Shown here in pieces: positions 26,186 to 64,000 of a stretch of 64,000 bases of DNA (within the stretch, counting starts at the first letter, position 1; the number at the start of each line of letters is the position of its first letter). The stretch comes from Erigeron canadensis (Eukaryota; Streptophyta; Magnoliopsida; Asterales; Asteraceae): assembly GCF_010389155.1 (NCBI RefSeq), contig NC_057769.1, positions 1,984,001 to 2,048,000 of the forward strand, in the 5' to 3' direction. The notes under the pieces are model-generated. The model saw nothing but the letters and a program-made list of their open reading frames with translations. It was not told the DNA's origin and did no database searches. A program made the translations under genes and the position numbers.

Positions 26186-29100
26186 ATGCAGAATTCCGAT
26201 AACGTTCGCGACCTTCCGATCGATATAGCTTTCGCACGTCTTGGCGGTACATACATATACATATACATATACATTTACATCTATATATATATATCTGTTC
26301 AATATATGATTGATTAATAATAATGAATTAAAAATGAATGAATATAGAATGGCTGGTTGATCGGAAAAGAATACCATCAGATTGGAGAAAAAAAGTGGCG
26401 GTTATCAAATCAAAGATTTCAACTGCTTTTCAATCTCTTCCTAAAGATATTCATCCTTTTTTCCAAACCCTAGAGCTTGATGGTTAGTTTTCTTTTTACT
26501 GTAACGGTAAAACGGTATTTATTTATTTAGAAACTAATGTAAGTTATCTATGTTGTCAGGGATTGGATACTTGGAAGCTAAAAAAATATATGACATACTT
26601 TTGAAATCAACTTCAGAAAGCCGCAATATTTTCGGCCGGCTTTCGGGTGATGCTGTAAGTACCTATATACTAGTCTTGCTTATATATATATATGTATATA
26701 TATGTGTGTATGTATGTGTTTTATGTCTAGAAAGTGTTAAAACACCTTACTGTATTTCGTTTACGGTAGGGTGCTTGGGAGGCAATCGTGCGAGCTTACG
26801 AAAAGGACCATTTGTTCCTTGGGGAGGCTGCTCAGATTATGGTCCAAAATGTGAACTATGAAATGTATGAATATAATTATATAAGGAATGCATATGTATA
26901 ATAATGCTTTTACTGATTACGTTTGTTTTCTATATATAGCCCGTATCATAAAAAGCTCATTCAGAGGACACAACAACAGCTTGCTGAGCTAGAAAGAAAG
27001 GAAACTGATATCAAAAGAAATGCAGCTCTTTCAGCTGCTAAGTATGCAGAGGCATGCCAGGAGCTAGGATTGCAGGTTATTATAGATTTTGTGGTCAAAT
27101 AACATCAGTTGGTTTGATTTGATGCTTTCTCTTGACAAACAATTAATCGCTTGTGGGTTGCAGGGAATCAATGTGAAGTCGGAATTGTTGGAAACTGCAT
27201 CAAGTTCACTACCCGTCACGTTTAGCAACTTGCTAGAAGTTTTGAAATGTGATTCCGTTTCACGGGCTATTGAATATTATTCCAATTTTGTTAGAGATGC
27301 TCACACAGAAAAAGATGTAGGATCACATCAAATGTTATTGCTGTGGTTACTATAGAGGTGGCAGTTTTGGCCCAATCACTAATTAGTGGGTCGACTCGGG
27401 TTATGTTACAGTTAAATGGATAAAAATTTACCTTAAAAGGAAATGAGTCAATCCAAAGTAACTTTCTATTGAGTTAAACCTTCTATATCATTTTATACTA
27501 GAATTTAAATAATTACCCGCCATGGACTCACTAACTGCTTTTAAAGATGTTCAGGTTTTTTAAAAAAAGTGTTTTTTGTAACCTGTGTCGCCTGCCATTA
27601 TGCCACCTCTAATATTTAACATTTGATAATACCTTGGATTTCTGTTAATATAAAGCCAATTTTTTTATTGACAGAAAGTTCCAGAGACGGTATTACCAAA
27701 TTTGAGGGATATCATTGATAATCCCCCAAATCTTGAAGTTTATGTAGCTTCAGAAGCACTTACTTCTGTGAATGCTCAAACAAACCCCAATGAACCAAAT
27801 CTGTCGACTTTAGAAGCTGATCTCGCAGCTGATAGCATTGACTGGGATATTACTTTAGATAGCTCACAGATCGATTGGGATATTGGCACGGTGGAAGAAG
27901 ATGGTGGTAATGGATTAGGTTCCTATGAAATTGTCGATGCCAGTGAGATTCCACAAGGTGCTCTAAATGATGGGGTGGACCCTGATGAGATTAATAGAGA
28001 AAATATGGTGACAGAAATCTCTTGGGATATCAGTGTTGACAATCCTGAAGTTGAGTTGGCTCAAGATAGTGCTTCAACAAACATAATTCAAGGAGAAGAT
28101 GCATCAGGGATAAATGTTTTTAATGAAAGTCAAAGATCCAGCCAAGTCAGGAGCCAGCTTTTGGAGACGGAGTATAGGAGTAAGATTCTTGATGATATGT
28201 TTGAGGTAAATAAAGTTGCTCTTTTTTTTTTTTAATGTTAGTGAGTTTAAGCTGGAAATTTGGGCAGGTTGGATGCATTTGGTAATTGGGGAATATGTTT
28301 TTGTGTCTAAATGGGTACTTTTTTGTACAGTTTGAAAATGAGCCAGGTCACCTTTGTTTACAGTGTCAAATTTTTATAAATGGTCATGTCCAATATGATT
28401 AAAACTATTATGTTACTTCAATAATAACCTGAATTTTCTTAATTTCACGCATTAAAAGTACACATTAGACGAATTTTGATTAATTTGACCCCCATACTTT
28501 TTGATCTTGTTCTATAGTGATCCGTTCCTACATAAAAGGGCTGCAATTGGCACCTCTACATAGATTTGAGTTTGCAGCTGATTTATATGTTTTGATCTCA
28601 TTCTTTGTATCAGATCAAAGCTTTTCTTAATCAAAGAATTATGGAGTTGACAAATACAGAGACGTTGTCTTTACAACATCAAGTTCAAGCAGTGGCTCCC
28701 TTTGTGTTGCAGCAGTACACTTCTGATGCTATCCAATCAATGCTGTCTGATGTCTCCTCGGCCATTTCCTTGCTCACAAATAGGAAAACAAGAGACCTTA
28801 TTATGATTCTCAACTCGAAAAGGTGGGTTACATTATATTTTATTAACATATATAATAACTAAAGATTCTTCTCCAGCATGTTGGGTTTGATTTTGTTGCA
28901 AATGTTACCAATGCCATGCAAGCTTTTTGTCCTCCATCTTAATTACACTAATGTAGATGTGCAAGATGGGTGAATATGGGTTTGTGTTTGAATATGTGGC
29001 ATAATGGGCCGCAATGGGTTGACCATTTTTTAAACTATTTTTATCTGAATACCATGGTTATGGTATGGGTCGAATTGCGACATACTCTAATGCTCTGGTT

Positions 29101-40782: not shown

Positions 40783-42552
40783 TCATTCAGGGAAAAACTT
40801 TTTCTTGAAGTTATTCCAAGCATACAAGCATTCAGGATCAAGGTCTACTTTACCTTGCAAAAAGATTTTATCCGAGCTAGCTATGATAGTGCTCAATGCC
40901 AAGTTCCCGTTCACTTTCCCACGACCAACCAACCAATTATACATTGCAAACCTCAACTTAATCTTCTGAATTGAGTGTGCTAAAAACGCAGGAAACGTAA
41001 CTAATGAAGATACATTATAACCTAATTCATTTACGAAAAAATCTAACTTCATTTCAATCACCTCTTTTGTCTGGTTAATAACTTGAGGTGCTAACCTAAC
41101 CATTTCTGTGACGTTTTCACGGCTTAAACCAGCGTTGACCAAACAGTCAAACCTCTCCTGAAGTTCCCCACCATTGCCTCTAAATAACTTCAGAGCTTTA
41201 GTCATTTCGCTAGAGTTTTCAACAAATCCTAAATCCATCAAAAATCTAATCTTTTTCTGGGACATTTCATTCTTTGCGTTTGGTAATGCCTTCACCTTTT
41301 TCCCAAGAACCCAATTCTTCAACTCTTGTGGGTTTTCTTTTATAGTGTCACAAAGGCGTTTTTTCCCACAATTTAATGAGTTTAGTAAGCTCCTAACAGT
41401 TTTTAGCGTGCAAGAACCGAGAACAGCTGGATTGGTGCGTATGATATTTGCAGCATCATCAGCATCCATCTCAATTGCAAGAAGGAAATCATAAGATTTC
41501 TTCAAATTCGACAGAAATGTTTGAATCTTGATTTGTGGGAACTGCTTAAACATTGATAATTTGTTATCAACAGAAGCTCCAAACTTTATCAAAAACACGA
41601 CCAATGAAATAGTTTTAGCTCCCGAATCTTCCATTAAAACCATAGGATTTTTGTTTAATAACTCTCTTATATCCTCATTGCTAAGACCAAATTTCTTAAT
41701 CAAATACAAAGTTTCAAGAATCCTGCTCCAACTATAAGTATTTTCCTCCAGGATGTTCTCTTCAAACCAACTATTTACAATCCCGGCGTTCATTAACATT
41801 TCTAAAACCTTCATGAAATCCTTAATTACTAAAATATCCGGGCATGACATCACGAGCTTAACAACACTAGGTTGACTGAAACCCTTTGCTTCAAAAAACT
41901 CAAGCACTGCTAACAATCGCCCATGATCATATCTAAAAACGTCACGAGCACCCATATAAATCCTTCCTACTTTATCAGGGGACACACCATACTCACATAA
42001 CACATGATAATTCGATAACAGCCTTTGATCATCAACTAAATAGATCATATCGCGCGGCAAAAGTGAAGCATACTCACAAGGCTTCAACCCCATACTCTCA
42101 AAAAAAGGCTCAAACTCGTTAATCGGATGGTAACAAAGCAACCTTCTTAAAGACTGTTTAACATCCTTCTCATTTTCCACATCTTTCAACAACTTTTCAA
42201 GAAATTCAGGTGAATTTCGACTAATATTTTCTGCATCCGAATACTGCAAACTTCTTGTAGAGTGCAAGTATTCAATCAGAACATCTTGTGCTTCTACAAC
42301 ACTATTGTTTTCTTCATCTAAATCATTTGACTTATTTTGACCATTTTTTAATTCATAACATGCTTTTTTACCATAAAACCTATGGTTAATGTGGGTAGTA
42401 CCCAAAAAACCTCCTGGGCACCATACACCGCTTTTGCCGGGATTGAGTATTCTTGTTGTAGCGGTTTTTACGGGGTTTAGATTATTTTTAGCCAAATTTG
42501 AAAATGCCCATTTGAAAGTAGAAAACGTTCTAACCTTTGAAAGATTGTTCAT
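40783..42552 (-). CDS. mTERF domain-containing protein (MTEF18/SHOT1-like)
   Basis: One uninterrupted frame of 589 residues from ATG at 42552 to the stop at 40783. Plant mTERF proteins are organelle-targeted, nucleic-acid-binding solenoids that affect organellar transcription and RNA processing. The first 60 or so residues are rich in Ser, Thr, Lys and Arg with few acidic residues, fitting a mitochondrial presequence. After an acidic linker come repeated helix-helix mTERF motifs with the usual proline marks (VKLVMSCPDILV, IRELLNKNPMVLM, NIIRTNPAVLG, TIKENPQELK, VTEMVRLAPQVI, VSSLVTFPAFLAHS). The block with YHPINEFEPFFESMGL and LLPRDMIYLVDDQ resembles MTEF18 (SHOT1, At3g60400), remembered as affecting heat tolerance. 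Orthology is inferred. Confidence 0.88.
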   Translation of the reverse strand: MNNLSKVRTFSTFKWAFSNLAKNNLNPVKTATTRILNPGKSGVWCPGGFLGTTHINHRFYGKKACYELKNGQNKSNDLDEENNSVVEAQDVLIEYLHSTRSLQYSDAENISRNSPEFLEKLLKDVENEKDVKQSLRRLLCYHPINEFEPFFESMGLKPCEYASLLPRDMIYLVDDQRLLSNYHVLCEYGVSPDKVGRIYMGARDVFRYDHGRLLAVLEFFEAKGFSQPSVVKLVMSCPDILVIKDFMKVLEMLMNAGIVNSWFEENILEENTYSWSRILETLYLIKKFGLSNEDIRELLNKNPMVLMEDSGAKTISLVVFLIKFGASVDNKLSMFKQFPQIKIQTFLSNLKKSYDFLLAIEMDADDAANIIRTNPAVLGSCTLKTVRSLLNSLNCGKKRLCDTIKENPQELKNWVLGKKVKALPNAKNEMSQKKIRFLMDLGFVENSSEMTKALKLFRGNGGELQERFDCLVNAGLSRENVTEMVRLAPQVINQTKEVIEMKLDFFVNELGYNVSSLVTFPAFLAHSIQKIKLRFAMYNWLVGRGKVNGNLALSTIIASSDKIFLQGKVDLDPECLYAWNNFKKKFFPE

Positions 42553-44348
42553 GATAAAAAGATTAAATCTTGAAAAAAAAGATTATAAAGATCTATAAAG
42601 ATTGCATTTTTACAAGGAATAATTGTATCTAAAGATTTGTATAATTTAAATCTAACCTTCAATTGCAGATGTGAAAAATTCAGAGCTCCAAATTTAAGTA
42701 TTATACAGCAAGTTGAACAGAGCTGGGATTTTAGTTAGGGTTTTTGGTATTCTGGCCTGTGGCGTAGGGTTTTTGCAGATGGTGGCAAATGCTTATGCTA
42801 TGAAACGTTAGGGGTACATAAGGATAATTATGTTTTCTTTGAGGGGTGTAATGATTATCTTGATTATCTTTACACATTCAACTTTTTTTTTTTTTTTTTT
42901 TTTTTTTAATAATTGCAATATTTTTAATCACTTCACTTTGATACAATAATTGTTTTAACTACTTGATTTTGAAAGGATATAATCCTAACTTTAACACAAT
43001 AATCATTTTAACCATTTAACTTTTATCTTGAATGATTTAATCATTTAATATTAAAACCATTTTACATAATTTCTTATCAAATCGATAAAAACACTTAACT
43101 TTAGTCAGAATTTATGCTTTTATCTTTTTAAACCTTCAACTAAATTAAGGCTGACAATATTCAATTTGAACAAGTAATAACCCATAAACCCATAAGCTCA
43201 TGTAATATGTTTGAAATATGAAACTAATATATGAGGTTGACGGCTTAATTTTAGGTTAAACATGTCACATGAGTATATGGAATGTGGGCTATTACGGGTT
43301 GAATTGTCAACTTAGTTCAGTTGAAGGTTTAAAGGGTAGAAACACTAATTTGACTAAAGTTTAATGTTTTTACCATTTTGAATAAAAGTAAAGTTATTTA
43401 ATTGATTTTTGGACAAGTTGGTTTCAGATCAAGACATGATATATGAGATCACGGATTGTAAGTTATTGCGGCTTGAATTCCGTCAACCCTAGTTCAGTTG
43501 AAGCTTTAAGATGTAAAAACATTATCTTAGATAAAGTTAGTGTTTTTACTATTTTAAATAAAAGTTAAGTTATTAAAACGCTTATGGTTTTAAAGTTAGA
43601 CGTTTAAATCATTCAAATTCAAAATTAAATGGTTAAAACGATTATGACGGCAAATATGTCAGCATATATTTCATTTGTGTTGGTTAATAATAGCCATATA
43701 AAATATTTTATATTATGCATTTGAAAATCATGTTAAATGATTTTATTTTTTCCCTTCCCATTTTTTTGCTTTTTTTAATAACAAAAACTAAAGAAAACAG
43801 TGCAAGGAAAAAACAATTATTTGTGAATGTTGAAAACAAAAACAAAAAAAAAAGTTAACAGAACAGGTTTTAACATTCAAAAGAAGTAAAAAGCTGCTGT
43901 TCTAAAAAAAAAAAGAAGTAAAAAGCCAATTACGTTTGTGTTATCTGAAAACGATTTTCATTAAGAGGCACAAAAAGTGAATTTTGAAATTGTGCCTAGG
44001 GGCTGGAGTTTGAGACTTCAAAGTTCTTAAACCCTTTAAAACTCCTGGTTAATTTCGCCAAAAAAAACAATGATTTAGAGATTATAATAACAGCACAAAA
44101 CCACAAGAACTTTTTTTTTAATGGCAAGTGTTAGATGTTAATAGTTCGAACCCCAACATGATATCCAAGGTGGTAGTATGCTGAAAGTTGGAATTCGCGC
44201 ACTCTTGCAGAACAAGAGCGATATAAACCAATATGCAAAAATTCTACAAGCTTCTCTATTTCCTAAACTTTACAATAATAATTTTCTCAAGCTATCTGCA
44301 AGAAACTTTTTTCCTATCTGGAGGTTGACCTGAGGCATAGGTTCCGCT
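42553..44348. other. Region between mTERF and the RNA-binding protein gene
   Basis: The mTERF promoter and leader lie on the right of its ATG. A long T run sits at about 42883-42907, then an imperfect inverted repeat (about 42920-43650). The remainder to 44348 is AT-rich and includes the probable 3' UTR of the RNA-binding protein gene. No other gene is supported. Confidence 0.45.
42920..43650. repeat. Long imperfect inverted repeat (fold-back)
   Basis: The left arm has AACCATTTAACTTTTAT, TTAACTTTAGTCAG and TTTTAAACCTTCAACTAAAT. The right side has the reverse forms: GTTCAGTTGAAGGTTTAAAGG, TTTGACTAAAGTTTAATG, ATAAAAGTAAAGTTA, and a second related set (GTTCAGTTGAAGCTTTAAG, GATAAAGTTAGTGTTTTTAC, AAATGGTTAAAACGATTATG). 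It may be a diverged MITE or nested MITEs. Confidence 0.5.
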
Positions 44349-47300: not shown

Positions 47301-48940
47301 TTCCTCGGCAATAAAAGGATATTGGCATCCCCTCCATTTTCAAACATGCAAACAAGCACATATCTCATCATTATTGCACACACCATATAATCATTTAAAA
47401 GAGACATCTTATGGCTTCCCATATATAAGCACAACTATTTTGTGGCGTAAACAAGATATATACATAAATAGCAGAGTCAAAGAGATATGCAAAGAAGTCT
47501 CCAGGTGTATCTAGTAGAGGTGGCAATTTAGTCTGAGTTATAAATAGAATGAAGGTTGATTTTTATCTATAACGATATGAACAGATAAAAGGAGATAAAA
47601 AGGCAAGGCTGAAACGAATATGGGTTAAGCAAGGAACACACATTAAAAGTCGTTCAAAGTATCTGTTAAACATGAGTATAAATCAACTTATTCCAGAAAA
47701 CATTTATGATGGTATATCACACACTATTTTAATAATTTTAAAGGTGAATTTCATTGATATGCACAAAGTTACAATCTGTACAAAAAACAATATACACAAA
47801 TTACAACAAAAAAACACATTCTAACTTATAACATTCAGCTCCAAGACTTAAAAATGCTGCACAAAAAACAGCAGACACCAACATCTAAAAACAACTCAAA
47901 TACACCTCAAAAATTCCAACAAAGCACATTCAGGTCAGAAATCCAAGGCAAACAAGATTAATGCTAGAATGAGACCAAGAAGCGTCATCTTTCACCGCTC
48001 TCTATTCTCATTCGCACACATTAATCCACACGCCATCCTGTCAAAAATCATCCTAGTGATTTATGGAAAAAAATCTTTCAGGTCAACCCAACAGCCAAAC
48101 CCTTTCCTACACATACAAATTTAGCTGTTTCAACCTGTTCCTATATTACCATTATTTGTATGATCCAACATCGAGACCTTAAAGTTTTATGTCGTGTTTG
48201 GACTTTGGATGTGCACCTAAAGCGATTACAATGACTTCGATAATCAAGTTTAGTCTTAGCAAAAAACAATTCTAACTCTGACTTTTTGAATTTTGATCAT
48301 TTAGGATCAAAATAATCAGAGTTGTAGCAAACAAAGAATGGTTTCAATGAAAAATATTTCAAATGTAAACTTAACCAACCCAACCATCCGTAGCCGTGAT
48401 CAATTAATTATCCGGTTTTAAGTCAATTTAATCAAGTCCAAAACACATTCTTAAAATTACTTTCACAATGTATCAATCCTTCGCGTGACGCTTATTATCT
48501 TGTGTGTGAATCCTAAGATATCCTAGGGTTTTTGAAAAAAAAAAAAAAAAAAACTCTATGAGATCACTTGCTTATTCTAATTTTCTTATAACTTTTGTCG
48601 CCTTAATTAATTTACTTGTTTATTTTATTTGAGCCAATTAACATCAGGGTGCAGCCTAGCTTATTTTTGAGCTTATTAGCTTATTTTTCATAAACCCAGT
48701 TTATAACAAAAAAATTCAAACAGCATATAGAAACATGATTCAAGCAAAACCCACATATAAAAATACAAACTTTATACAAATTAAAAGAAAAAAGATGGAT
48801 AAAAAATCTTACAACTTTGATAAAAGCTCAACAAGCTGGGTTTTGGCAAGTGGGTCTAACAAAGAACGCAACTTTTCTTTACTTTCGCCATTGTTATTCT
48901 TGGTGCTTTCTTCAAGCTTTCTTTTTGCCAAATCATCCAT
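44349..48940 (-). CDS. Two-RRM RNA-binding protein (UBP1-associated protein 2 type)
   Basis: Six exons in phase, minus strand: 48940-48813, 47331-47211, 46552-46409, 45486-45293, 45143-45068, 44651-44349, giving 321 residues. An hnRNP-like nuclear RNA-binding protein. UBA2 proteins bind U-rich mRNA with UBP1 and are linked to wounding, senescence and ABA responses. Residues 1-43 hold the N-terminal motif LRSLLDPLAKTQLVELLSKL. RRM1 has RNP2 KLFVRGLAW and RNP1 KSRGYGFITY; RRM2 has KLFIGGLS and, across the exon 4/5 junction, SRGFGFITY. The Pro/Tyr-rich tail starts after GRNITVKHAD and ends IWACGK, shorter than the tails I remember for Arabidopsis UBA2a-c. The intron 1 donor gives TT|GTAAGA, completed by G from exon 2. 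Intron 2 has a hAT element (46695-47148). A copy of part of exon 1 lies upstream at 50331-50450. Confidence 0.88.
46695..47148. mobile_element. Non-autonomous hAT element in intron 2 of the RNA-binding gene
   Basis: 454 bp. The left end is CAGGGGCGTTCTT and the right end, reversed, TAGTGGCAGATCTT, hAT-like termini. Flanks TTGTGTAG (46687-46694) and TTGTGTAA (47149-47156) are an 8-bp target duplication with one mismatch. GC-rich subterminal stretches (GGGGGCCCGGGC and GGCCCCCACC) face each other. There is no transposase frame. Confidence 0.68.
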
Positions 48941-50330: not shown

Positions 50331-50450
50331 AACCAATACAAACTTTATAACAAACGAAAAGAATAAAGATGGATAAAAAATCTTACAACTTTGATAAAAG
50401 ATCAACAAGTTGAGTCCTGGCAAGTGGGTATAACAAAGAACGCATTTTTT
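50331..50450 (-). pseudogene. Partial duplicate of exon 1 of the RNA-binding gene
   Basis: On the minus strand this matches the 3' half of exon 1 at 48813-48940 together with its donor and first intron bases. It would read RSLLYPLARTQLVDLLSKL and then the same TT|GTAAGATTTTTTATCC junction. Similarity stops just upstream, before the equivalent of the start codon, so it lacks an ATG. It is probably a broken gene fragment; an alternative first exon cannot be ruled out. Confidence 0.7.
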
Positions 50451-50582
50451 CTTCTGAAGAGGATATAATTACGCCTTATAATGTGTCATTTGCGGGTATG
50501 TTTAATGAGTTTTTAAGGGGTTTTAGGAGCTTAGAGTCCCAAACTCCATGGGTGGGAATACATTATACATTGACAGATGCTC

Positions 50583-51970
50583 TTACATTGGCCGAATCTC
50601 GAGGCCGCTTACAATAAGGCCAGACATGGTTCCTTCATAAGTTATGAATTTCAGATACATTGGAATATGATTGCTTCTGAGCTGAGAATTTGAGTTAAAT
50701 TTCCACACAAGAACCTCCATCCATCCATCTTCCCTTTCTTTTGCCCCATTAGTATCAGGTCTAAAACAAATTAGTCTCGTCTCTTTGTTTTTCCACTGTA
50801 AAACATCCCTTACTCTCACAGGACAATGCAACCCGTGACATGTTTCCGAAAGCTTAAATACAAGGTAACACGTGTAATCTTTATCTGGCGACAAAAGTTG
50901 ACTTTCAATTTTGCCCTTAATACCAAACACTTGACGCTTTGAAAGCTCATTTTCCCCTTGAAATCTGCATGAACAATATATCATTAATGAAATGTACATG
51001 CTTTGCGGATTTTGACTCTTCAATTTGTGTATATTTATATATCATAACCACCTTTACATTATTACTAAGGTAGCACACAATACTAGAAATTCAACTATGA
51101 AAGATAGTCTGATAGTTTACAACACACCTCGACTCGGCTGAATATTTCAAATGAAAAGGCTTTGCTATTGAAGACTGGTGTGGAGCTTCCATATCCAAAA
51201 GCATAAAACATATCTTTTTGTAATGTACTTGTTTGAGCAAGAACCCCTGATCAGCAAATCACAAATGTATGTTAATGTTAATTATCTTTCCTATAAACAT
51301 TGTTAACATATAGATGAAGGAATTTTTAACCTCGATCGCTAATCCTGTGCTCGTCAATCTATCCTTAGAATCAGTGGGAAAGTGTTGTATTTCCTCTGGT
51401 TTCTTGATTTCTTCATGTATTTGAGTTTCCTGATATTTCTTGATCTCTTTAGAGCCGTCTTCTTCATGTTCCTGTATAAATTACCTTGTTAATTATACAA
51501 GTACGAGTATAATGCAGGGCATGAACTTGCACTTGATCTATCTACTATGTTCCAAAACGTAAAACAAAAGAATCATGAACGGAAACATAAACTTAATTAT
51601 ACTAAAACCTGCCTTTTCTATGGTCCGAAACTCTACGCCTTCAATATAGATGCTACTTCTTCCACAGTAGCTACGCGAAAAGCTCTCCAGTACAACTTTG
51701 AATTCAGTATCTTCTTTGTAATTCAGGATTTGGCACAATTCAATCGTCATCCACCCGTCTTCTCTCAATGTGGCGAAGTGTGAGTGTAAAGTATCGCTTC
51801 CACTCTTGTACGTTAGGTTCACAAACATCTGTTTAGCTAGACATTTTCCTGATTTAAACTTAAAGACTAGATGAACCCCATAGTTGTCTCCGGGAAGTAA
51901 AAGTTGAGGTTTTATCTTAATTCGGACCTTCATATTCATTGTATCCAACATTTTTGCTACTACATGAAAC
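50583..51970 (-). other. Rest of PP2 domain 1, acidic linker and PP2 domain 2
   Basis: Exon 51970-51613 completes the first PP2 domain (VRIKIKPQLLLPGDNYGVHL, VFKFKSG, LREDGWMTIELCQ, SIYIEGVEFR). Exon 51471-51331 is an acidic/Lys-rich linker. Exons 51246-51128 and 50964-50583 form PP2 domain 2 (KQVHYKKICFMLLDME, SRFQGENELSKRQVFGIKGK, YTCYLVFKL, REDGWMEVLVWKF, LIVSGLEIRPM stop). PP2-type lectins bind glycans or act in phloem and defence; binding residues were not assessed. Confidence 0.82.
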
Positions 51971-54900
51971 CTGCAGATATGGTATAAAATTATAAATATT
52001 TTGTCACTCTTTTCCCCCCATGTACAGCTTCTATCAATAATTTGGCAATTTTTTCAACCCAAAAATATGTAGTATGTATTTTATTTCATTATAGTGGCAA
52101 AGATAGCAAATTAATAATTTTAAACTTACATGTAACACCATGATTTTGACCCGTTTGACTTTACGTGTAAATTGATTTAACAAATTATAGCTAGTGATAT
52201 AGTTGGAGTCGTTTTATGATTTAATGACGTGTTATTTGGTTATACGACATTAGACGACGTTTTAACTAAACTAGAAATGTGAAACGGTTTAGCCATGGGA
52301 CTTACCCATGACCCAACTAACGTATCCCCACCCTATCTCTTCCTCCCACACAACCATCCATTCATTCCTTATCTTCTCTCTCTCTCTCTCTCTAGATTAC
52401 AAGAACACACACACACACACACACTCATATCTCACTCTCTCTCAAGAATTCTTGCGCCAAAAATTGTGTTTCAAGTTAGATTGCCACCGCTGCCGCCGCC
52501 ACCGCCGCCGCCACCACCACCACCACCACTGCCACCACATATCAAAAGTATGAGTATTTTCAAGTGCAAGAACTCCTCATCTAGCTCAAATTCGGATTTG
52601 GCACTTTGGTGGAAGTTTTGGTAAGTTAAATCCAACTCAAATTCATCATTTTATGTTGTTAATCATGTTTCTTAGTCCACTTTAAGTGTTCTTGGTCAAA
52701 TTTGGGTTCAAAATGAATTTGGGTCAAAATTAGGGTTTTGGGTGGATTAGGGGTAAAATTTGGTCTTAGATTTGTGTTTTGGAAGAGTTTAAATGATGGG
52801 TTTTGGTCAAATTTTGTTAGTAACATGTTTGATAGCATCAAAATGGGTTCTTAATGGTAAAAAATGAGTTTGGAAGTGATTTGGGTGTGTTTGGAGCCGT
52901 GTATGTGTTTTTCGGTGTGCTTGACCTGCATCGGGCAATACGCCCATTTTGGAGTAATTTACGCCCCCCCGGAAAGTGAAAAACCCTCCTTTACGGCCCA
53001 ACTCCTTGATTTACGCCAAAACGTGCAGAAAAGGCTTGTTCCAAGCAACCGTAACTTACGGTGGTCATTAGCGTAATTTACGCTAGGCCAAAATAGGCCA
53101 CCCTAACTTATGGTGGTAACCACCGTAAGTTATGGTGCTCTTTAAAGTGGGTTTTCCTGTTTTGTCTTTCCTTTAGCTCGTTGATCTTCCATGGTCCTTG
53201 GGTCGAGCCATACCTTTTTGTACACCTTCATTTGGGTCCATTAGTGTCATTTATGAGTCTCTAGAGTTGTTCAAGGGTTAGAGGTAATTCCGAATCCACA
53301 TCAACCAAGTTATCCATTTGTTTCTCGAGATCTTCCAATTCAACTCTAGTATCATCTTGATTGAAAAATTAGAGGGTTAGAGACTTGTTTTTCTTTTTTA
53401 CCTTCTCTTAACATATTAGATGGATCGCTGGACTTTTATTTAGTTAGTATGGACTATTAATAAAAAAAGTATTTATTAGTTTTGGGCCCGAAAAAAGGGA
53501 AAAGATAAGACCCTATAATACACCGTTCTAACCGAAATTTTAACAGCTAAATATCGGCAAAATAACGGTAAATACCACCGTTAATAACGGAACCTTTATT
53601 TTGACCGTTATTTTTGTGGAAGAACCGATAACCGTTATTAACAACATAGCTTATTTTTGATTTATTATGCATTCGATTTTGATTATATGATGTGATTAGG
53701 ATAGTTGTACATACATGGAAGACGATGATGCCTTTAAAGAGTTATAGATGTGGTTGGAAGGCTGCGGGTGATCCTATATATAAGCGACTATGATTCCTTA
53801 AATGTAAAGTCGTATCAAATGTATGCGCATTGTGGTTTGGTTGAATTGTGGGATATTGGACTTGTGATTGAGATGGACATGTATGTATTGATACACTTGA
53901 CGTTTGTTATGCATTTCAAACTTGTGAATCTTGAAACTAGTGACGCCACGATATGGACCAAGTATTGTGATACTTTATGACTTGAAATTATTGACGTGTG
54001 ATACTTCATGACTTCAAACTATTGACGCCATGATGACAACCATCTTTTGAAAATAAACAGTTGATGGTTACTTGCTCCGTGTGCATTTTATTCCTTGTAT
54101 TTGATGTTTGGATTCACCGAATTCCTTTCTATTCATTTAGTCTTGTTCTACGATAAGCCCATGCATACGCTATGTCTTTTCGGTAACATTAGGAGCCTAA
54201 CTCGGGGCGTTACATTACGTCATTATGTTAAATCAAGTTTTAAGACATTTCACATTTATAAAATGTAACATCCGCCGTTTTGACCACTCAACATAACGTG
54301 ACTAGTAAATTTGAAACGAGTCAAACTGAAATAAAGTAAACTTTTGTTATGAAAAGGTAGGCATATGAATATTCGTTAAAAACTTAATTTTGAAATAGAT
54401 AATAATATGTCAACGAAGTATTTGAACTAGTCTCGGGTTAAAAGTTTTAACAAAACGAATCATTTCTCGACAGAAAACGGAATTAACCGAGAGAGTGTTT
54501 TGGTGGAACAAAACTCTCCCACCCTTCCTTCCCACCTCATTTCTCCCTTCTCCTTTCTCTCTACATTGTCATTTCCTCCCCCCCTCTCTAAGTTTCAAGA
54601 ACATCACCATAATCATCTTCTTCCTCCCTTCTTTCTTTAAATTTCGGATTTCATCATCTAATGGGTTAGAAAATCATCTAATAATGGGTATAAATAATGA
54701 TAATCATTTTCAAGATTCAAGATTTCATCCATTTTCAAGTGTGTTTCATACCCTTTGAGTTCAAAACCGTGTTTCACATTTCTAGGAAGAATTGGTAGGT
54801 GATTTCCTTCTTAAAATGTTCATTTTACATTGTATGTTACTTCATTGGTATAGATCTAAACGATTAGTAGTTGATTTGGGTGAAATATGAGTGTTTTTGG

Positions 54901-56380
54901 TAAAAAACGGGTTTCGAATATATCTCAGAGATTTTGGAAGTGGGTTTGTGAAAAGAACGGATGTTTATGCTTTGTTATACTTGTATTTGGTTATGTTAAA
55001 GTTTGGAAACTTGATTTGGCTCCTAGGTTGATCGATTTTGATGTCAAAACTCGTTTCTGGTTTAAAATCTGGGTCAATGGGGCTCACTGGTTTTAGGGCT
55101 ACCCACTAGTTCATTTTTGTGGTCAGGATTGTTCTAGTGCGAAATTTCTGGTAAGGCTTACTAGCTGCTGGTGTGTAACGAGGGTTGTTCTAGTGCGCCT
55201 CGTCAGGTTTCTAGTGAGGCTCACTACCTGAAGTCCACGTTTTTGTATCATTTAACTTTCGTACTTGGTCGGTTGGGTACCAATGGGTTGCGGGAACTTA
55301 CCCAAGCTTTTTTTTATGGTTGTGGCATGGTGTCTTTAGCTAGACCTTACCGTTTGGGATACCATGTAATGAATTGATGTGATGTAATAGGTTGTGATCG
55401 TTGTTTGAGGTTGGTATTGTCAGTGGCGGCCCTGGCGGCCCTGACAATTTTAACACCCCGGCCGAGCAAAAATAATTATGCCCCTAACTTTAACCGAATT
55501 CAAATATACAAATAACCTTTTTTTTAAACGATAACTAGCATTATAACAAAAAATTATATATGCATAATAAGATCAAAATTTTAGAATTACATACCATAGT
55601 AGTTACTTATTTACCCGATGATCCATGAAACTCTCCTAGCATTCGTCATAGCAAATTGGTTAATTAGCTCTTCACAATTTATGTTCTCTAAGATTTCGTT
55701 CTCGATAGCTATTATGGCCAATCCCCTAAGTCTTTCTTGAGACATTGTTGATCGTAAATAAGATTTCAATAACTATTAACACATCTTTTAATATATTATA
55801 CATTTTATATATAACATATATATAAAAAGTTTCAAAAATTTATGCCCCTTCAAAATTTATGCTCCGGCCGGTAATCGGGTTTGCACACCCTCTAGGCCTC
55901 CTCTGGGTATTGTGCTCACTAATCTTCGGAGATTATGTTTGCTCGTTTCAGGTGAGTTTCGCAGCCCCTACTATATGTTGTATGCTTTGAGTGTGGAAAG
56001 ATACTCCCTATGTGATTATTAAGCTTATGTTTATTTTACATGCATACGTTTTTGAGCTACAATATGTCATAGGTAGACATGTATCGTGATTAGTATCGGT
56101 GTGGATGTAGTGAATGTATAAGATTTTTGTACCCTATACTAGAATGATATTGCGATATGGTATATGATATTTGATGTGTTTATATGATTAGAGATGGGTA
56201 GGTTTTCAGTATGCACCTAGGTTCGTTTGGTGATTTAGTTAATTGGAAAGTGTACACTTTGTTAAACGTGAACGTGTTGTTATGGATGCATCATTGATGT
56301 TAAACGTGAACGTGGTGTTATGTGGATGCATCATTGTTGATTAGACGTTCAATGTATTGTTATCTTGATATCGTGTTGTA

Positions 56381-56422
<42 letters not shown>

Positions 56423-56619
56423 AAAAAGGGAATATAAGGCTGTCCGACACCTAAGCTTAGGTGTGGAACCCCTCACATACTAATATTTTATTATTTATTG
56501 TTTAATGATAAAATGCCTGGGCCCCCATGACTTTTATGGTTTAAAAAAATTAATATGTGAGTGTCTGACACCTAAGCTTAGATACCTAAAAACCTTATAT
56601 TCTCATCCCCCCCCCCCCC

Positions 56620-56666
<47 letters not shown>

Positions 56667-59600
56667 AAGTGAATTTAAGGTTGTCCGACACCTAATCTTA
56701 GGTGTGGAACCCCTCACAAATTTTTTAATATTTTTTGATTAATGAATAAATGCTCGGGCCCCCATGAATTTTATGGATGAAAAAAACAATACTAGTGTTC
56801 CACAACCCTAAGCTTAGGTACCTAACAGACTTCTATTACCATCCCCTATATATATATATATATACACACACACATTATATATTAAGACGGGAAACGTAGT
56901 GGATTGACTAATCCACATTACAGATTGTTGAATCCGCGTTATACATGTAAGACGGGAAATCGTTATGGATTATTAAATCCATATTATATATATATAAGGC
57001 GGGGAACGTTACGGATTGTTGAATCCGTATTATTATTATATACGTATGTAAGATGGGAAATGCGGCGGATTATTAAATCCATATTATATATATGTTAGAC
57101 GATAAACGTTATGGATTGTTGAATCCACATTATTATATACATGATGTAAGACGGGAAACGTTACGGATTGTTGAATCCGCTTTATGTGTGTGTATCTATA
57201 TATATATATACACACGTTTATCAAAGGAATCCTTGTTGTTAATTGTTGAACGTTTGAACATGTCATGTGATCCTACGAACTCACCAACCTAGTGTTGACG
57301 TTTTTGAGTATCTTTTCAGGTAAGAGAAATCGCTTGCAAGCTAGGAGTTGATGGATGGACCCAAAGATCGTTGGATTGCATTCTAGATTTTCAGACTCGG
57401 GCATGATGCCTCGGTTGTTTTCCCTTTCATGGGATTTGTATATTGTATTTTGACTCGAGTATGACAATTTGTTGTGTTAAATTGACATCATATAGTTTCT
57501 CTCAGTAACATCTATTTGCAAGCTCGTTTCAGTTGCATCTCACGTTTCCGCCACGGGAGAGGTGTTACATAAAATCTATTTGATGGGATTGTTAATGCTC
57601 GAGGAAGAGAGAACAAATGATTTTTAGTTAAAAAGCTATATATATAATAGATATCTCATTAATGCATAATTCATTTCATGTATATTCAAAAGTAATTTAT
57701 AAGAATGTGAAAAAAGTTTAAAAATGAAAAAAAGTACACTTGCGTATAGTAGAAGGTTTAAAAGAAATACTCAGTTGCAAGTGAAAAAAGTTGATTATTG
57801 TTGGCTTAATGAAGTATTCCAATTTTAATTCTAAGTTCACCTTATCAAGAATACCTATAAAGAAAAGGAGAAAGAGAAATGAACCTTGATTCTGGAATTG
57901 ATAGCCATTTGCGTTGCCAACGATTGGTGTATGAAAGTTTTTGTGCTGATATCATCACATTTCTTTTTCCGTTGCTCCCCAAAGAAAACCACTGTTATAC
58001 ACCAAAAAATCAAACTTATTCTTCATAATAATTGGTGCATGATTGATTTATGCGCTGCTCCCTTTTAGCAAACATTTTAGTTAATTGAGACAAGTTTAAT
58101 GGCTCTTTTGGTTCACTTAGTAACAAGTAACTAGAATTCTAGAAAGTAGGTTAAGAAATATAAATTGATTGTCTGGACCATCAATCATATGATAATTTGG
58201 ACAATTAGATCAATTCATTAAATGAATTAATGGATGAATAGAGATAGTTTTTTTATCCAATAAGTCATAATAATGGATTGATATTGGATCAAGATCCAAT
58301 CTATTGAAAGGGAGCCTAACTCTGCACGACATGCAACCCATTTGGTTAAACATACATAACGCAAAACTTTGATAACGAATTTCTCTAATTTGCCTCCTAC
58401 TATAATCATCTGTATACTACATGATAATTAAATAAATGAAATGTGTTGTCAGCTTAACTTTTTCGTATTTAGTATATGTGCAAATATTATAATGTTTTTA
58501 TTAAAATGATAATTTGCAATATATATCATTATAGTACCGCTTTGCCTTCCTGAAAAAAGAATCCATCACATAGCATGTCGTAAAAATCCTTAAACCTTCC
58601 GGGAATAATAATGCCTTCACCTGACATATGAGATAGTTTTTCGTAGTCCTTAGGGAGTTTGGTCTCCCGTATCTCATGATCCTCCTATATTTTAAACAAT
58701 GAAAACATTAGTTAGTTATTTATACGCATTTCATTATACGCACCGTTTAACATGCATAAAATTTTGTTTAACTGTTTGCATTTATAGTACGAGTAGTCTA
58801 CATTAACAACTGTAAACTTAAAAGTTTCACATTTAAAAGTGTAAGAAAATTGTTTACACACTAATAAGTGTATACAATATTATATTTGTAAGCATTTTCA
58901 AGTGGAAAGATCACTTATTCCCGAGTAATTTCTATGCACTTGTCTTGTTCGTAGAAATCACCCGCGAAGAAATTGATATTTTAGAAGTGCGTACAAATAT
59001 AAAATTTGTACATATGGTGTGAACATTTTTTTTTAGCTCTTTCAAATGTAAAACTTTAAATTTGATCACGGTTATCGATGTAGAACTACCTAGTAAAGTT
59101 TAAGGAAAAATCACCCGCGAAGAATTGATATTCCCACTTAAAACTTAAATGAGCATAAAAGTATAAAATTTGTACATGAATAATTTTCTTCGCACTTTTA
59201 TATGTAGATATTTTAAAGTTGGCCGCGCTTATTGATATGGATGCTTTATACACGTTTATAAGTGCAAAAAATTCAGTAAAATTTTTATCCACTTTCTAGA
59301 AGGGTGTTAAAGAAGGGTTGAAAGGAAATTACTAACTTTGTAAATCAAAATATAAAAACAACGCACTTACTTGTTCTGTCAGTGCCAACGTAAGTTTTTC
59401 AACCACCTCACTAGCACCTGGCCAATAAGTTTTATAACCATTATCTTGTTGAAGGCATTTATAGGTGATGTCAGAATATGCATCCAATGATCGTGTCACA
59501 GTTTGTTCCTTTATACCCTCAAACATCATCTCATCAAGAGCATCTTTTTTATACCACTTTTTAGCCAAAGAAAATTTCTTAAATTCCTCTATTTCCTCTT

Positions 59601-62600
59601 CACAAGCAGATCTCCCGACCAACATCTCCAATAAAACCACGCCCAATGAATACATGTCTAACCGTGCATCATAAAATCCCAACTTTTTGTAGCTGAGTGA
59701 GCCATATGATAACTCCTCAAAATTAGAAAGTTTAGCCCTCCAATCACCGTCAAGTAATATGCTACTGCTTTTGATGTCTCCATGTATCATCGACTTACCT
59801 TTTGTGATGCCACCTGTGTGAAGATATTCCAATCCCCTTGCAACATCGAGGCCTATCTTGAGGCGTTTCATCCATGTAAGATCTGCATTGTCCAAATGCT
59901 TCTCGAGTGTTCCATTAGACGCATGCTCATAAACAATTACTTTTTCACCCATTTCGTTACAATACCCTACAAAACCAACGATGTTCTTATGCTTATGCTC
60001 AAAAAGAAATTTCAACTCTGTCATAAATTGAGAGTTTCCTTCATCGGATCCGCTATCAAATCTCTTTGCAACAGTGGGGGTACGTCCATTAGCATTTGCG
60101 AGTAAAACTTCTCCTTTATACAGCTTCCAGGATCTTCCTATTCCAGTGCAGTTGCAGACACTGAAGTTTTGTGTGCCCAATTTTATGGCTTCAAGGAGGT
60201 TGTCCTTCCTATTATTCTGTGAATCACAACACTCTCAGTTGTTATGTATAACTCAAATGATTTAAATATCCACTTCAAAATTTCGTTAAGCTTGTATCAG
60301 AAATTTTAAGCTAGATATCACCAATTCATGCCAACTATTTGCCGGTAAATGTATATTATTAAAAAAGAGTATATAAATAAAAAAAGTGAATTTATAAATC
60401 AAAATTGTTATTTACTTATAATTGACATTCAATCTTTAAGTTCGAGATAGTTTTATGATGTTTATAATACACGCAGCTATATCACCGCGCAACATCAAAC
60501 AGGCCAGGCCGAGTGTGATGATTTAGCATTCAAGAATAGCCTACAAACAACAGGCCTGTTAGGGTTTGCAAGCTTCCAAGCAGTGGTAGTTAACATATAA
60601 GGATTTTAGTCATTCAACAATTACGCTTCAAATTTCACTGAGTTTTGTCTATGTTTCACTAATTTTCAATTTTCATATAAAAAAAAGTAGGTTGATGTGG
60701 TGAACAAACTATATCCTCCGAATGATGAAATCATCATGAAAAGAAAAAAGTTAAAATGAAAACAGTTACTCACTTGAAGGTTCAAAGATTTCTCAAGCTC
60801 TTTGATGATGACTTCTATTGTTGGACGGTCAACTTGAGCTTTTGCCACACATTGACTTGCTACTTTTGCAAATGTGTATAACGAATCGTGATTGAGCCCT
60901 TCATTTAGCCCATAAATATTTTCATCAGCTTCCTTCAACTGTGGATCTACCAATTCCTCTATAGTTTTGTCATTAAAGCATTGTCTTACTATTGACGGAA
61001 GTCCCATTGTATTGTAGATATTATCATATGCCAAGTTCCCAGACATTATTTCACACAAAACTACTCCAAAAGAGTAAATATCTGAGCTAGTTTTCAGGTT
61101 ACCAGTTTTCTCGTATTCTGGATCCAAGTACACTTGGGTACCACCAATGTTAGCACTAAGGAGGGTGCTACGTTGGATATATGTAGGGTGTAGCTTGGAG
61201 AGCCCAAAGTCTGCAATCTTTGCCTGCCATCTATCATCCAATAGAATGTTTGCACTCTTTATATCCCGGTGTATTATACATTCTTTGTCTTCTGTAACTT
61301 TGTGAAGGTATTCTAACCCATATGCAATATCAATGCATATTTTTATACGTTGAACCCAAGTAAATTTAGTAATCTTATCACTCTTTCCCAGATAATCTTC
61401 GAGGCTTCCATTAGAAGCATATTCGTAAATTAGAATCATTTCTGGTTCTTCGTCACAATAGCCGGTAAGAGAAACTATATTTGGATGCTTACACTTGCTA
61501 AGCAGTTCAATTTCAGCAAGGAACCCTTTTTCTGCTAGCCCGTCTACCCTACCAAATATACGTTTGATAGCTACAGTGCTACGTCTCTTAGGCAATTCAA
61601 CTTTTTTGTCTACCCTATTGAAGAGACGTTTAATAGCTATAGTGCCACGCCTCCTAGGCAATTCAACTTTTTTCTCTCCTTTATTCACGGTCGGTGAACT
61701 GTTGCCATCAAAATGGTCAAGTTGTGCTTTGTACACCGTAGCAAATCCACCTGACCCAATGCAATATATGTCGGAAAAATTGTTCGTTGCCAACTTTATG
61801 TCACTTAATTGAATTTTTAAGTGATCTAGAGTTTTCACCTGTAATAGTTAAGGAAAGTCATGAAACATGTTTCTATCCTTTATTAATCAGCGAACTTACT
61901 ATTTCATCGGTTTCTTTTTTGTCTAATGCGCCAACAAAACTTTTTTTTTTGTCCTAATAAGATAATCCAATAACTTGATTACTTGACAACCAAATGAAAC
62001 GGTAACTTATTAATTAATTTATTTTACACGTGTCAACCTTTAATTGTTCATTTGATGTATTTTACTTTTCATCTTTTTGTAGATCGAATGTCCTTTTACT
62101 TTTATTTGCCCTTTATGCTTTAAGCGTAAAATAGACTTATACCAAACATGCATCATTTTTTTTTTCCTGGAGTGGATTTTTATTTAAAAAAATTTAAAAA
62201 TAAATAAACAAGGTAAAAAAGATATTTAAAGAACTTTCTTTCCCTTCTTTCCAAAAGCCACCTCTTGATCTCTATCATATATAGGGGTAAGTTAGACTGA
62301 GAACAACGCTTTCAAAAAGACCAAAAGAACAATTCTCATATACACATTTTCCACCCTTAATAAAATAACAAAATTCCACCTAACTCATTAAATACTTTTA
62401 TAATTTTATTTCAAGCACAGTATATCGTCAAACGAAAAAAAAAGAGTATAGTGTACGATTAGAAGAACCATGAGAACCTTTAAATTATAACTTGATGTTC
62501 ATATGTGAACGGTATATGTGAACAAATTTGTTCACATATGAATAGATCGATTTAAACTCTATATTACCTATATCTATTTGACTATTTGTGAATGGTTCTC

Positions 62601-62622
62601 ACATGAAACTTACTCTATAATC

Positions 62623-62659
<37 letters not shown>

Positions 62660-64000
62660 CATAAACTTCATATTTTTCAAACATTTAATAATGAGATATT
62701 TGGTGGTTTGAAATTTGGAGTGAATTGAAGGTAATTAGCATAGAAAAAAAGGTTACCTTAAAAGACCATTTACTAGCTAAATAGATGCCAGATAACATTA
62801 TCTACCTAACAAATTATACACACTTTTTATCATCATAATAGTCAAAATAATTGCTGTATATTTATTTTATTTTTTGAACAACTAACATACTCAAAACAAA
62901 GATAACAGGTGACAAATGAAACGACATATATAGATAAAATTAAGTTTAGTATGTCATTACCTTCAAGTGGTTTGATGATGTACCTTTTCCAGCTCTTGAA
63001 TGTTCCTATAATTAATAATTTTAATATCAATAATCACAAAATTCAAAATCATCAGTTTAATAAACTTATATGCTATTATTATGTCAAAAGTATATAATAA
63101 CAATAATAAAACAAAAAGGTGAAAACAAGAATATAACAAATTGATGGTCTTACAGGACTTTCATGTATGCGATGAAGTTCCAATGCTCGCTCAAGTCTTT
63201 GGAGAACTTTTTTCATATCTGGACGTTGTGACCGCTGTTCCTTCAAGCAAAAATATGCTGTCTCGGAAAAGATGTTTAATGATTCTGTGTTCATTTGTTT
63301 TCGTAGATTGGGATCAATCTTCTCATCCAGTTTCTTCTCTTCGTAACAGGCTCGGGCCATTCGAGCAAAATACCAATTATCATCGTGATCTGGGGTGCTT
63401 GGAACAACAGATGATGCTGTTATTCCAAACAGGACTTCAAACAGAACAACACCAAAGGAGAAGACATCTGACTTGTTAGTCAAACCTCTAGTGGTTTCAT
63501 ATGCTGGATCCAAATATAACAATGAGCCTTTGTATGTATCTATAAGGTAAACCTGGTTCCTTTTAGCTATAACAGCAAATTGAAAACCATGTAACTTGGG
63601 TTCCCAGTGGTGATCAAGTAATATTTTGGAGCTCTTGATGTTACCATGTATCACACTTTGATCCTCATCCGCATCAAAATGAAGGTAAGTCAACGCACGT
63701 GCTATCCCAACACATATATGCAGTCTCCGCATCCAACTCAGCATTGAGCTGCTACTTAGATGTTTGTCTAGACTTTCATTCACCTCGCGCTTGTATATGA
63801 TCAACCGATGAGTAGCTTTGTAATCAGTCACAGAGTATTTAAAAATAGGGACAATATTATTATGCCTGAGATTTTTTAGCATTTTGAGCTCTTGGATTGC
63901 AATGTCATATGACAGACTTGCTCGTACAATAATACTGACGAATTCTCCTGATGATTGTATGAAGAGTTGTCCTTTGTAAAGTTCAGAAGAAGTTTGTGTA
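50583..64000 (-). CDS. Triple tandem kinase with two PP2-like domains (5' end beyond window)
   Basis: Ten exons on the minus strand, partial at 64000: 64000-63154, 63005-62961, 61838-60774, 60216-59371, 58684-58538, 57991-57885, 51970-51613, 51471-51331, 51246-51128, 50964-50583. Phases match throughout, giving about 1351 residues in the window. Order: pseudokinase A, a 15-residue linker exon (EHSRAGKGTSSNHLK), kinase B with HRD and DFG, pseudokinase C, a linker (EDHEIRETKLPKDYEKLSHM onward), PP2 domain 1, an acidic linker, PP2 domain 2, stop. Kinases resemble the receptor-like cytoplasmic/CrRLK1L-related class; PP2 is the phloem-lectin fold. No signal peptide or membrane helix is seen in this part. 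One junction (51613 to 51471) needs a GC-AG intron, or an inner acceptor at 51461 with donor after 51609. Automatic annotation could split it into several genes. An immune role by analogy with cereal tandem kinases is inference. Confidence 0.8.
52131..54214 (+). mobile_element. Solo LTR (LTR2), 2084 bp, inside a kinase-PP2 intron
   Basis: Starts TGTAACACCATG at 52131 and ends CGGGGCGTTACA at 54214. Flanks are TTACA (52126-52130) and TTACG (54215-54219), a 5-bp target duplication with one mismatch. It contains promoter-like CT and AC runs (52377-52430) and CCACCG-rich codon-like repeats (52480-52540) but no polyprotein. The plus orientation is assumed from the CT-rich leader-like part, so it is less sure than the boundaries. 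The frames it contains are low complexity and are not called. Confidence 0.72.
55421..55905. mobile_element. Non-autonomous hAT element nested in LTR3
   Basis: 485 bp. The left end is CAGTGGCGGCCCT and the right end, reversed, CAGAGGAGGCCTA. GGTATTGT flanks both sides (55413-55420 and 55906-55913), a perfect 8-bp target duplication. The short GGCGGCCCTG segment is doubled at the left end. No transposase. Confidence 0.82.
56420..56620. mobile_element. MITE with ACACCTAAGCTTAGGT ends in LTR3 (copy 2 of 3)
   Basis: Bounded on both sides by TA microsatellite. It begins GGGAAAAAGGGAATATAAGG, then GACACCTAAGCTTAGGTGTG; the far end, reversed, reads GGGGATGAGAATATAAGG with CTAAGCTTAGGTGTCAGACA. The centre includes GGGCCCCCATGA. 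It is the same family as the elements at 32306 and 56664. Confidence 0.65.
56664..56846. mobile_element. MITE with ACACCTAAGCTTAGGT ends in LTR3 (copy 3 of 3)
   Basis: Follows the previous copy after a TA run of about 40 bases and is in the same orientation (GTCCGACACCTAATCTTAGG, GTGGAACCCCTCAC, GGGCCCCCATGA, CTAAGCTTAGGTACCTAA). Again it is bounded by TA microsatellite on both sides. Confidence 0.65.
56884..57200 (+). repeat. Tandem repeat of about 50-60 bp units in LTR3
   Basis: About six imperfect units of the form AAGACGGGAAACGTTACGGA, TTGTTGAATCCGTATTATAT and a TA-rich spacer. Each unit holds the small dyad GGATT...AATCC. Spacers are TA or TG microsatellites of varying length. Confidence 0.75.
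57885..58684 (-). other. Kinase-to-PP2 linker exon and first exon of PP2 domain 1
   Basis: Exon 58684-58538 (49 codons) ends DFYDMLCDGFFFQEGKA at donor GTACTA. Exon 57991-57885 follows an AACAG acceptor and reads WFSLGSNGKRNVMISAQKLS and onward to SIPES plus two bases. The stop codon met by reading past 58538 lies in the intron and is not a premature stop. The WFSLG...MISA and W..IPESRF pattern is the start of a PP2-like domain. Confidence 0.8.
59371..60216 (-). other. Pseudokinase domain C
   Basis: One exon of 282 codons: NRKDNLLEAIKLGTQNFSV, then a degenerate glycine loop (GIGRSWKLYKGEV), VAKRF with the lysine kept, HGDIKSSSILLDGD (HRD changed to HGD, aspartate kept) and KLSNFEELS where DFG is missing; the APE segment is also absent (LGFYDARLDMYSLGVVLLE). 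Activity is unlikely because the metal-binding DFG aspartate is lost. Confidence 0.85.
60774..61838 (-). other. Kinase domain B (intact catalytic motifs)
   Basis: One exon of 355 codons: LATNNFSDIYCIGSGGFATV (glycine loop), AIKR (ATP lysine, present twice because of a 66-bp duplication), HRDIKSANILLDD, ADFGLSKL, GTQVYLDPEYEKTG and SSDIYSFGVVLCEI, then the RPT-type end. All catalytic residues are present, so this is the only domain of the three expected to be active. Acceptor TTACAG precedes 61838, and donor GTGAGT follows LNLQ. Confidence 0.9.
61542..61673 (-). repeat. In-frame 66-bp tandem duplication in kinase B
   Basis: Two adjacent 22-codon units at 61673-61608 and 61607-61542. Unit 1 begins KKVELPRRRGTIAIKRLF and unit 2 KKVELPKRRSTVAIKRIF; both end RVD. 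Each unit contains the beta-3 AIK lysine. Several substitutions separate them, so the duplication is not an assembly artefact of identical reads. Confidence 0.92.
62514..62539. repeat. Perfect 26-bp palindrome in a kinase-gene intron
   Basis: Centred on AAATTT (ATATGTGAACAAA and its complement), preceded at 62497 by a further TTCATATGTGAAC that can pair with the same arm. It sits in a longer region with AGAACCATGAGAACC at 62463 and GTGAATGGTTCTCACATG at 62587, possibly a MITE. A TA run follows at about 62629-62653. Confidence 0.65.
63154..64000 (-). other. Pseudokinase domain A (exon, 5' truncated by window edge)
   Basis: Reads from ELYKGQLF through LKMLKNLRHNNIV (alphaC region), the catalytic loop HGNIKSSKILLD instead of HRD, and LHGFQFA where DFG should be, then YLDPAYETTRGLTNKSDVFS and RSQRPDMKKVLQRLE. 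Both catalytic aspartates are lost, so it should be inactive. The glycine loop is not in the window. It ends HRIHESP at a GTAAGA donor. Confidence 0.85.

Follow-up and report, generated by a model that had tools for sequence, protein, structure and literature searches.

The analyzed window, 64,000 nucleotides of Erigeron canadensis contig NC_057769.1 (positions 1,984,001 to 2,048,000), contains a minus-strand gene in which three kinase domains (K1, K2, and K3) are followed by two phloem protein 2 (PP2) domains (PP2a and PP2b). Three large minus-strand open reading frames (ORFs) matched Pfam kinase models (best E values of 1.1e-21, 2.7e-42, and 7.4e-21), and two small minus-strand ORFs matched the PP2/Nictaba family PF14299 (E values of 4.6e-13 and 1.1e-21), all above the Pfam cutoffs. 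With splice sites placed on the raw sequence, ten exons between 50583 and 64000 were joined in matching phases into 1351 codons with a single terminal stop, and the stop codon ends at 50583. The best match of the protein search was P0001, a protein of 1393 residues listed as encoded by the window and 100% identical across the query. The exons are as follows.

63154..64000, minus strand: exon 1, K1 pseudokinase; the exon exits the window, with its ATG at window-equivalent position 64125 and its donor after 63154
62961..63005, minus strand: exon 2, 15-codon linker EHSRAGKGTSSNHLK, in phase and contained in P0001
60774..61838, minus strand: exon 3, K2, an RD kinase predicted to be catalytically complete
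59371..60216, minus strand: exon 4, K3, a degenerate kinase (HGD, NFE)
58538..58684, minus strand: exon 5 (L3), linker after K3, with a GT donor immediately ahead of an intronic in-frame stop
57885..57991, minus strand: exon 6 (N1), beginning of the PP2a module, WFSLGSNGKRNVMIS...
51613..51970, minus strand: exon 7 (P1), PP2a core; its donor is GC, with a GT alternative after 51609
51331..51471, minus strand: exon 8 (M), linker joining the PP2 domains, contained in P0001
51128..51246, minus strand: exon 9 (N2), beginning of the PP2b module, contained in P0001
50583..50964, minus strand: exon 10 (P2), PP2b core and stop codon

An earlier note on this DNA had described a one-strand exon series of about 1351 codons with matching phases, in-phase linker exons between the modules, and an N terminus beyond the window. 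All three points held: the rebuilt model has 1351 codons and sits exactly inside P0001 at an offset of 42, the linker exons are contained in the annotated protein, and extension upstream added the 42 missing residues, all of exon 1, with the start 125 bp past the window end. In full-length P0001, Pfam marked three stretches as kinase and two as PP2. Together, the exons are established as one gene, predicted to encode a 1393-residue protein made up of a pseudokinase, a complete RD kinase, a degenerate kinase, and two PP2 domains. The protein is most likely soluble and intracellular, because its N terminus consists of the run-up to K1, which starts near residue 18, and Pfam detected only kinase and PP2 domains.

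Paralogous loci were used to examine the bridge between kinase and PP2 exons. A PP2 search of the plant's own genome (426 Mb and 356 contigs, in which the window is C9:1984001-2048000) gave 153 matches, and among the 150 listed, 46 same-strand neighboring pairs were obtained by a distance rule. Within these, 41 PP2a-PP2b pairs, the window's included, were picked by hand, and 20 of the other 40 were examined (L002 to L021). A same-strand kinase exon was found upstream of the PP2 pair, within 10 kb, at 20/20 loci, and the first linker exon was detected by tblastn at 17/20 and was weak at the other three. A second pass, which took the best local match per interval and hence always returns a match, gave a GT donor at the linker end at 20/20 loci (16 at the exact codon and 4 off by three bases), an AG acceptor at the next exon at 20/20, and an AG acceptor at PP2a at 20/20. 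Because this exon bridge and its splice sites recur at all 20 loci, kinase and PP2 domains are, as far as sequence can say, joined in one gene across the family, as the earlier note had proposed for the window. A gene end at the in-frame stop after exon 5 was rejected; exon 6 (57991-57885) and its 20 paralogous counterparts make that stop intronic.

The intron between PP2a and the next linker (51612-51472) has a GC donor in the annotated model, and a GT alternative that shortens the protein by two residues is also usable. The GC donor was found after PP2a at 17/20 of the paralogous loci (mostly GCAAGT, with one shifted by three bases), and GT was found at 3/20. A GC-AG intron kept across a family is uncommon, and a regulated splice is possible.

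The catalytic motifs differ among the three kinase domains of the window's gene. In K1, R replaces the beta3 Lys, HGN replaces HRD, and HGF.. replaces DFG; K2 has all of K, E, HRD, and DFG; and K3 retains the Lys as well as the Asp of HRD (in the form HGD), with NFE in the place of DFG. The same residues were counted over 48 proteins, comprising 47 homologues with the order K-K-K-PP2-PP2 and P0002, in which PP2a was split into two matches. K2 retained the beta3 Lys in 48, the alphaC Glu in 48, the HRD Asp in 47, and the DFG Asp in 46 proteins. The corresponding counts were 6, 39, 10, and 6 for K1 and 48, 45, 39, and 17 for K3 (with Asn in place of the DFG Asp in 26). On these counts, K1 is predicted to be dead in most relatives, K2 to be complete in nearly all, and K3 to be degenerate. 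The pseudokinase-kinase-pseudokinase order suggested earlier agrees with the motif table, and P0001 has the composition of a tandem kinase protein: it has three tandem kinase domains, where at least two are expected, and by sequence motifs it combines an intact kinase with pseudokinases.

The best splits in a tree of 144 kinase domains (FastTree) recovered 46/48 K1 domains with none foreign (support, 1.0), 47/48 K2 domains with 4 foreign (support, 1.0), and 46/48 K3 domains with 1 foreign (support, 0.99). Each kinase position thus makes up an old clade of its own, and the order has been inherited as a unit. A recent tripling of one kinase was ruled out by these separate clades and by the mutual likeness of K1, K2, and K3 in the window's gene, which is 30-31%. 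The nearest solved kinases of K2 by sequence were FERONIA (E value of 7e-53) and then Pto (E value of 4.6e-52), and FERONIA was also the nearest by fold. A FERONIA-like kinase domain, one mark of the CrRLK1L family, was found in K2 only. A malectin-like ectodomain ahead of the kinase was not found in the Pfam search of the full protein, which gave only kinase and PP2 domains, and CrRLK1L membership was not assigned.

Exon 3 contains one further feature.

61542..61673, minus strand: 66-bp in-frame tandem duplication in K2 (copies at 61608-61673 and 61542-61607, 85% alike)

The duplication corresponds to 22 residues and yields two successive VAIK-like (lysine) strands. It was unique to the window's gene among the 48 proteins and was absent from those paralogous loci whose K2 stretch was compared. 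In an AlphaFold model of K2 (mean pLDDT of 80 and pTM of 0.82, from 31 sequences), the second copy forms a normal beta3 strand (residues 84-94), and most of the first copy (residues 56-73 and 76-78) is a loop with pLDDT below 50. The duplication may be harmless or may alter the ATP site.

Both PP2 domains matched PF14299, in agreement with the claim of a PP2 tail, which can be specified as Nictaba type. The PP2b core matched the Nictaba structure 8ad2 (E value of 9.7e-06); the match of PP2a to Nictaba was weak (E value of 0.037), with no alignment over the stretch of the first motif, and PP2a and PP2b were 32% alike over 88 residues. No common Trp was found among 47 relatives in the stretch ahead of the PP2b core, and one was found in the stretch ahead of the PP2a core. 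In Nictaba, the first conserved motif contains the Trp residues crucial for sugar binding (PMC6362431). Binding of GlcNAc by PP2b in the manner of Nictaba is unlikely from these sequences. Of the "lectin" tail proposed earlier, the PP2/Nictaba-type domains remain, and sugar binding has become doubtful for PP2b.

Domain layout was scored in the best 120 of 4020 homologues with models built from the family. The order K-K-K-PP2-PP2 was found in 47 and K-K-K-K-PP2-PP2 in 23; the remaining 50 were mixtures with at least two kinases, some without PP2. The layout, which had been called unusual, is so only outside Asteraceae. All 118 named proteins among the best 120 came from Asteraceae genera. The 48-protein set covers 11 named genera (Erigeron, Helianthus, Mikania, Deinandra, Rutidosis, Artemisia, Tanacetum, Lactuca, Taraxacum, Cynara, and Centaurea), which belong to three subfamilies. 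A query with the PP2-PP2 tail gave 90 matches, all listed, of which 87 were from named Asteraceae and one was unnamed; the other two were distant PP2 proteins from Juncus and Bauhinia without a listed kinase domain. All named proteins among the best 120 single-exon relatives of K2 were likewise from Asteraceae. Among the matches listed, the family was found only in Asteraceae, by protein searches that reach relatives sharing short words within a length range and may miss distant relatives elsewhere.

The window's gene shows the domain order, the position-specific clades, and the conserved linker exons of this Asteraceae family. Its nearest relative, P0002 (E. canadensis LOC122580917), is 68% identical across the whole query. 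Public databases already list proteins of the family with automatic, domain-based names ("protein kinase-like domain, phloem protein 2-like"). The window's gene is a member with the same domain order and length class and differs from them by the 22-residue K2 duplication and by two insertions in the PP2a intron, described below. No description of an Asteraceae kinase-PP2 family was found among the listed matches from the open-licence literature.

Other copies in the genome showed additional features. Of 13 E. canadensis proteins from the protein search, four matched examined loci with 98-100% identity across the exons present there; P0007, for example, had 966 of its 1194 residues on L016. Four more PP2 pairs lie inside 61 kb at G000:C9:2561316-2622261, roughly 0.5 Mb away from the gene in the window, and further clusters of PP2 pairs were seen on C2, C6, C7, and C9. 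At L007 (G000:C6:8848450-8858430), the best K2 match is interrupted by an in-frame stop near the beginning of the domain, so some copies of the family are decaying. Exons of the E. canadensis protein P0034 matched two loci, L008 and L009, about 70 kb apart, at 99.7-100%, which reflects either a join in the model or assembly or a recent exchange between copies. Public models of the family are therefore not all sound.

Ratios of nonsynonymous to synonymous substitution rates (dN/dS; Nei-Gojobori, whole-exon averages) were calculated between the window's gene and close paralogues. They were 0.27-0.37 for K2 (three loci; L010 and L011 were excluded for K2 because their K2 exon is cut off and another kinase was matched), 0.22-0.45 for PP2a and 0.26-0.50 for PP2b (five loci each), and 0.18-0.61 for the short linker L3. 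K3 was the most relaxed overall (0.36-0.69, five loci). K1 was left out because no K1 was found at three of the compared loci. No stops occurred in the aligned parts of these comparisons. The ratios show purifying selection on K2, K3, and both PP2 domains, and L3 is constrained as well. The suggestion that the PP2 domains are an integrated sensor, in the sense of a recent or variable add-on, was not upheld: kinases precede the PP2 pair at 20/20 PP2-pair loci examined, 11 named genera share the layout, and dN/dS for PP2a and PP2b was 0.22-0.50 against five paralogues. A recently integrated decoy was rejected as the default view of a tail that is old and conserved.

Several known systems resemble parts of this gene. 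Like the wheat and barley tandem kinases RPG1, Yr15/WTK1, Sr62, and RWT4/Pm24, compared here by their available descriptions, it combines tandem kinase and pseudokinase domains without a listed ectodomain, but it has three kinases, of which the middle one is predicted to be live and is FERONIA/Pto-like, carries a PP2 tail, and belongs to a different plant family. The tandem-kinase resistance proteins described in the literature consulted are from wheat, barley, and their relatives. Sr62 and RWT4 both require a helper NLR; the latter recognizes an effector variant and phosphorylates it (PMC12830362). In Lr9 (WTK6-vWA) and Pm57 (WTK-vWA), a kinase-pseudokinase pair is followed, as here, by an extra C-terminal domain, for which a role as a decoy has been proposed (PMC10260399 and PMC11153570). 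The extra part is vWA/Vwaint behind two kinases in those proteins and PP2-PP2 behind three in the window's gene, and their kinase pair is reported as a duplication, whereas the kinases here are only 30-31% alike. The pseudokinase of Pm57 is under relaxed selection relative to Lr9 (PMC11153570), which is comparable to the position of K3 as the most relaxed domain here. Protein kinase domains have been associated with Nictaba in various species (PMC5485960), and in F-box-Nictaba, TIR-PP2, AIG1-Nictaba, and kinase-associated Nictaba chimeras a C-terminal PP2/Nictaba domain is likewise combined with a signaling domain (PMC5485960 and PMC12355970); the window's gene differs in having three kinases ahead and two diverged PP2 copies. 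CrRLK1L (FERONIA) and Pto, the latter an immune kinase inside the cell to which bacterial effectors bind (according to structure titles), gave the best solved sequence and fold matches of K2, and from these the gene differs in its tandem layout and in having no ectodomain found by Pfam.

The best explanation, held tentatively and short of an even chance, is that K2 is controlled by K1 and K3, that the PP2 domains serve in docking, and that release of K2 would start a defense response. K2 would be the only strong catalytic unit, with K1 and K3 restraining it, acting as docking surfaces, or both; conserved residues are the basis for this proposed control by the flanking kinases. The PP2 domains, both beta sandwiches, would bind a partner, either protein or glycan, and position the protein or bring it into pairs. 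Alteration of K1, K3, or PP2, whether by an effector from a pathogen or by a ligand made under stress, would then release K2, and the freed K2 would phosphorylate the bound partner or a helper, leading to defense in the way that has been reported or proposed for tandem kinases of wheat. The immune step is drawn by analogy alone, with the cereal tandem kinases as the template. The dozens of family loci in the genome, many of them clustered, favor this explanation.

Several observations weigh against it. K3 may perhaps still be active in some relatives, because its Lys is kept in 48/48 proteins and its HRD Asp in 39/48. Near L012, L014, and L016, no K1 was detected even when another 6 kb upstream of each locus was included, so K1 may not be essential to all members and some close paralogues may lack it. 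A full-length model of the relative P0004 had a pTM of 0.40, and its domain packing is not defined. No sign of the hypervariability of effector-binding parts was seen, with dN/dS of PP2 and K3 below 0.7 as whole-exon averages. In addition, the paper on Pm4 describes receptors of the kinase fusion type as "specifically found in cereals."

Almost as likely is a nonimmune role for the same single gene. The protein would be an intracellular FERONIA-related signaling kinase that the PP2 domains place on phloem components or glycosylated partners and that acts in growth, wound, or abiotic-stress signaling. Conservation over 11 named genera and purifying selection fit a steady internal role, the nearest solved relative is a FERONIA-type kinase, and PP2/Nictaba proteins are stress inducible and vascular (PMC5485960 and PMC12355970). 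Nevertheless, dozens of loci in one genome, many of them clustered and with a varying number of kinases, circumstantially resemble a defense-type repertoire.

A third explanation, which is improbable, is that the window's gene is a decaying copy whose frames are intact by chance and whose function was lost through the duplication next to the ATP site and through transposon-like insertions. Two insertions lie in the intron between exons 6 and 7.

54264..57569, minus strand: LTR-like insertion 1 in the PP2a intron, 3306 bp, with TGTAAC..GTTACA ends and identical 5-bp flanks TTTTA
52131..54214, minus strand: LTR-like insertion 2 in the PP2a intron, 2084 bp, with TGTAAC..GTTACA ends and flanks CGTAA / TGTAA (4/5)

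The LTR-like (long terminal repeat-like) label is based on ends and flanks only. Together the insertions make up 5390/5914 bp of the intron, the counterpart of which spans about 0.1-4.4 kb at the 20 paralogous loci. These insertions, and a duplication seen in no other of the 48 proteins, speak for decay, but no stop occurs across 1393 codons, the splice sites are usable, comparisons with close paralogues (three of them for K2) gave dN/dS of 0.22-0.69 across K2, K3, PP2a, and PP2b, and the model keeps the second copy of the duplication as a normal beta3 strand, with the first (pLDDT mostly below 50) as a loop. Finally, two to four separate genes, with kinases and a PP2 gene fused by gene prediction, are very improbable: the 6.6-kb gap between exon 5 and PP2a with its in-frame stop, and the two loci behind the public model P0034, would suit them, but they were rejected on the conserved bridge of homologous linker exons with in-phase donors and acceptors at 20/20 loci (first linker weak at three) and on public annotation, in which the order is common to 47 of the best 120 homologues, in 11 named genera and from several annotation sources.

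If the defense explanation were extended to the whole family, Asteraceae would have built their own large set of intracellular receptors with three kinases and two PP2 domains, a separately evolved dicot counterpart of the cereal tandem-kinase receptors. This extension is possible but rather doubtful. The same guarded standing applies to its details, by which a live kinase would lie between two dead or dying ones in an arrangement fixed before the main subfamilies split and present at dozens of loci per genome. Were it true, sunflower, lettuce, and their kin would carry a large set of unexplored receptors, and the dead-live-degenerate order conserved in the family would be a clean setting for studying pseudokinase control of a neighboring kinase. 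Were it not, the genes would still be a lineage-specific signaling family with dozens of loci annotated by domain names only.

The remainder of the window contains the following features.

3793-7676, plus strand: receptor kinase exons (leucine-rich repeat and kinase)
9081-11474, minus strand: protein with three C2 domains and PRT_C
27672-28235, plus strand: CDK5RAP3-like exon
40783-42582, minus strand: mTERF protein

The kinase part of the receptor kinase at 3793-7676 was only about 32% like K1-K3. Just downstream of the stop codon of the kinase-PP2 gene, a 104-bp direct repeat with copies 89% alike was found at 48776-48879 and 50350-50453.

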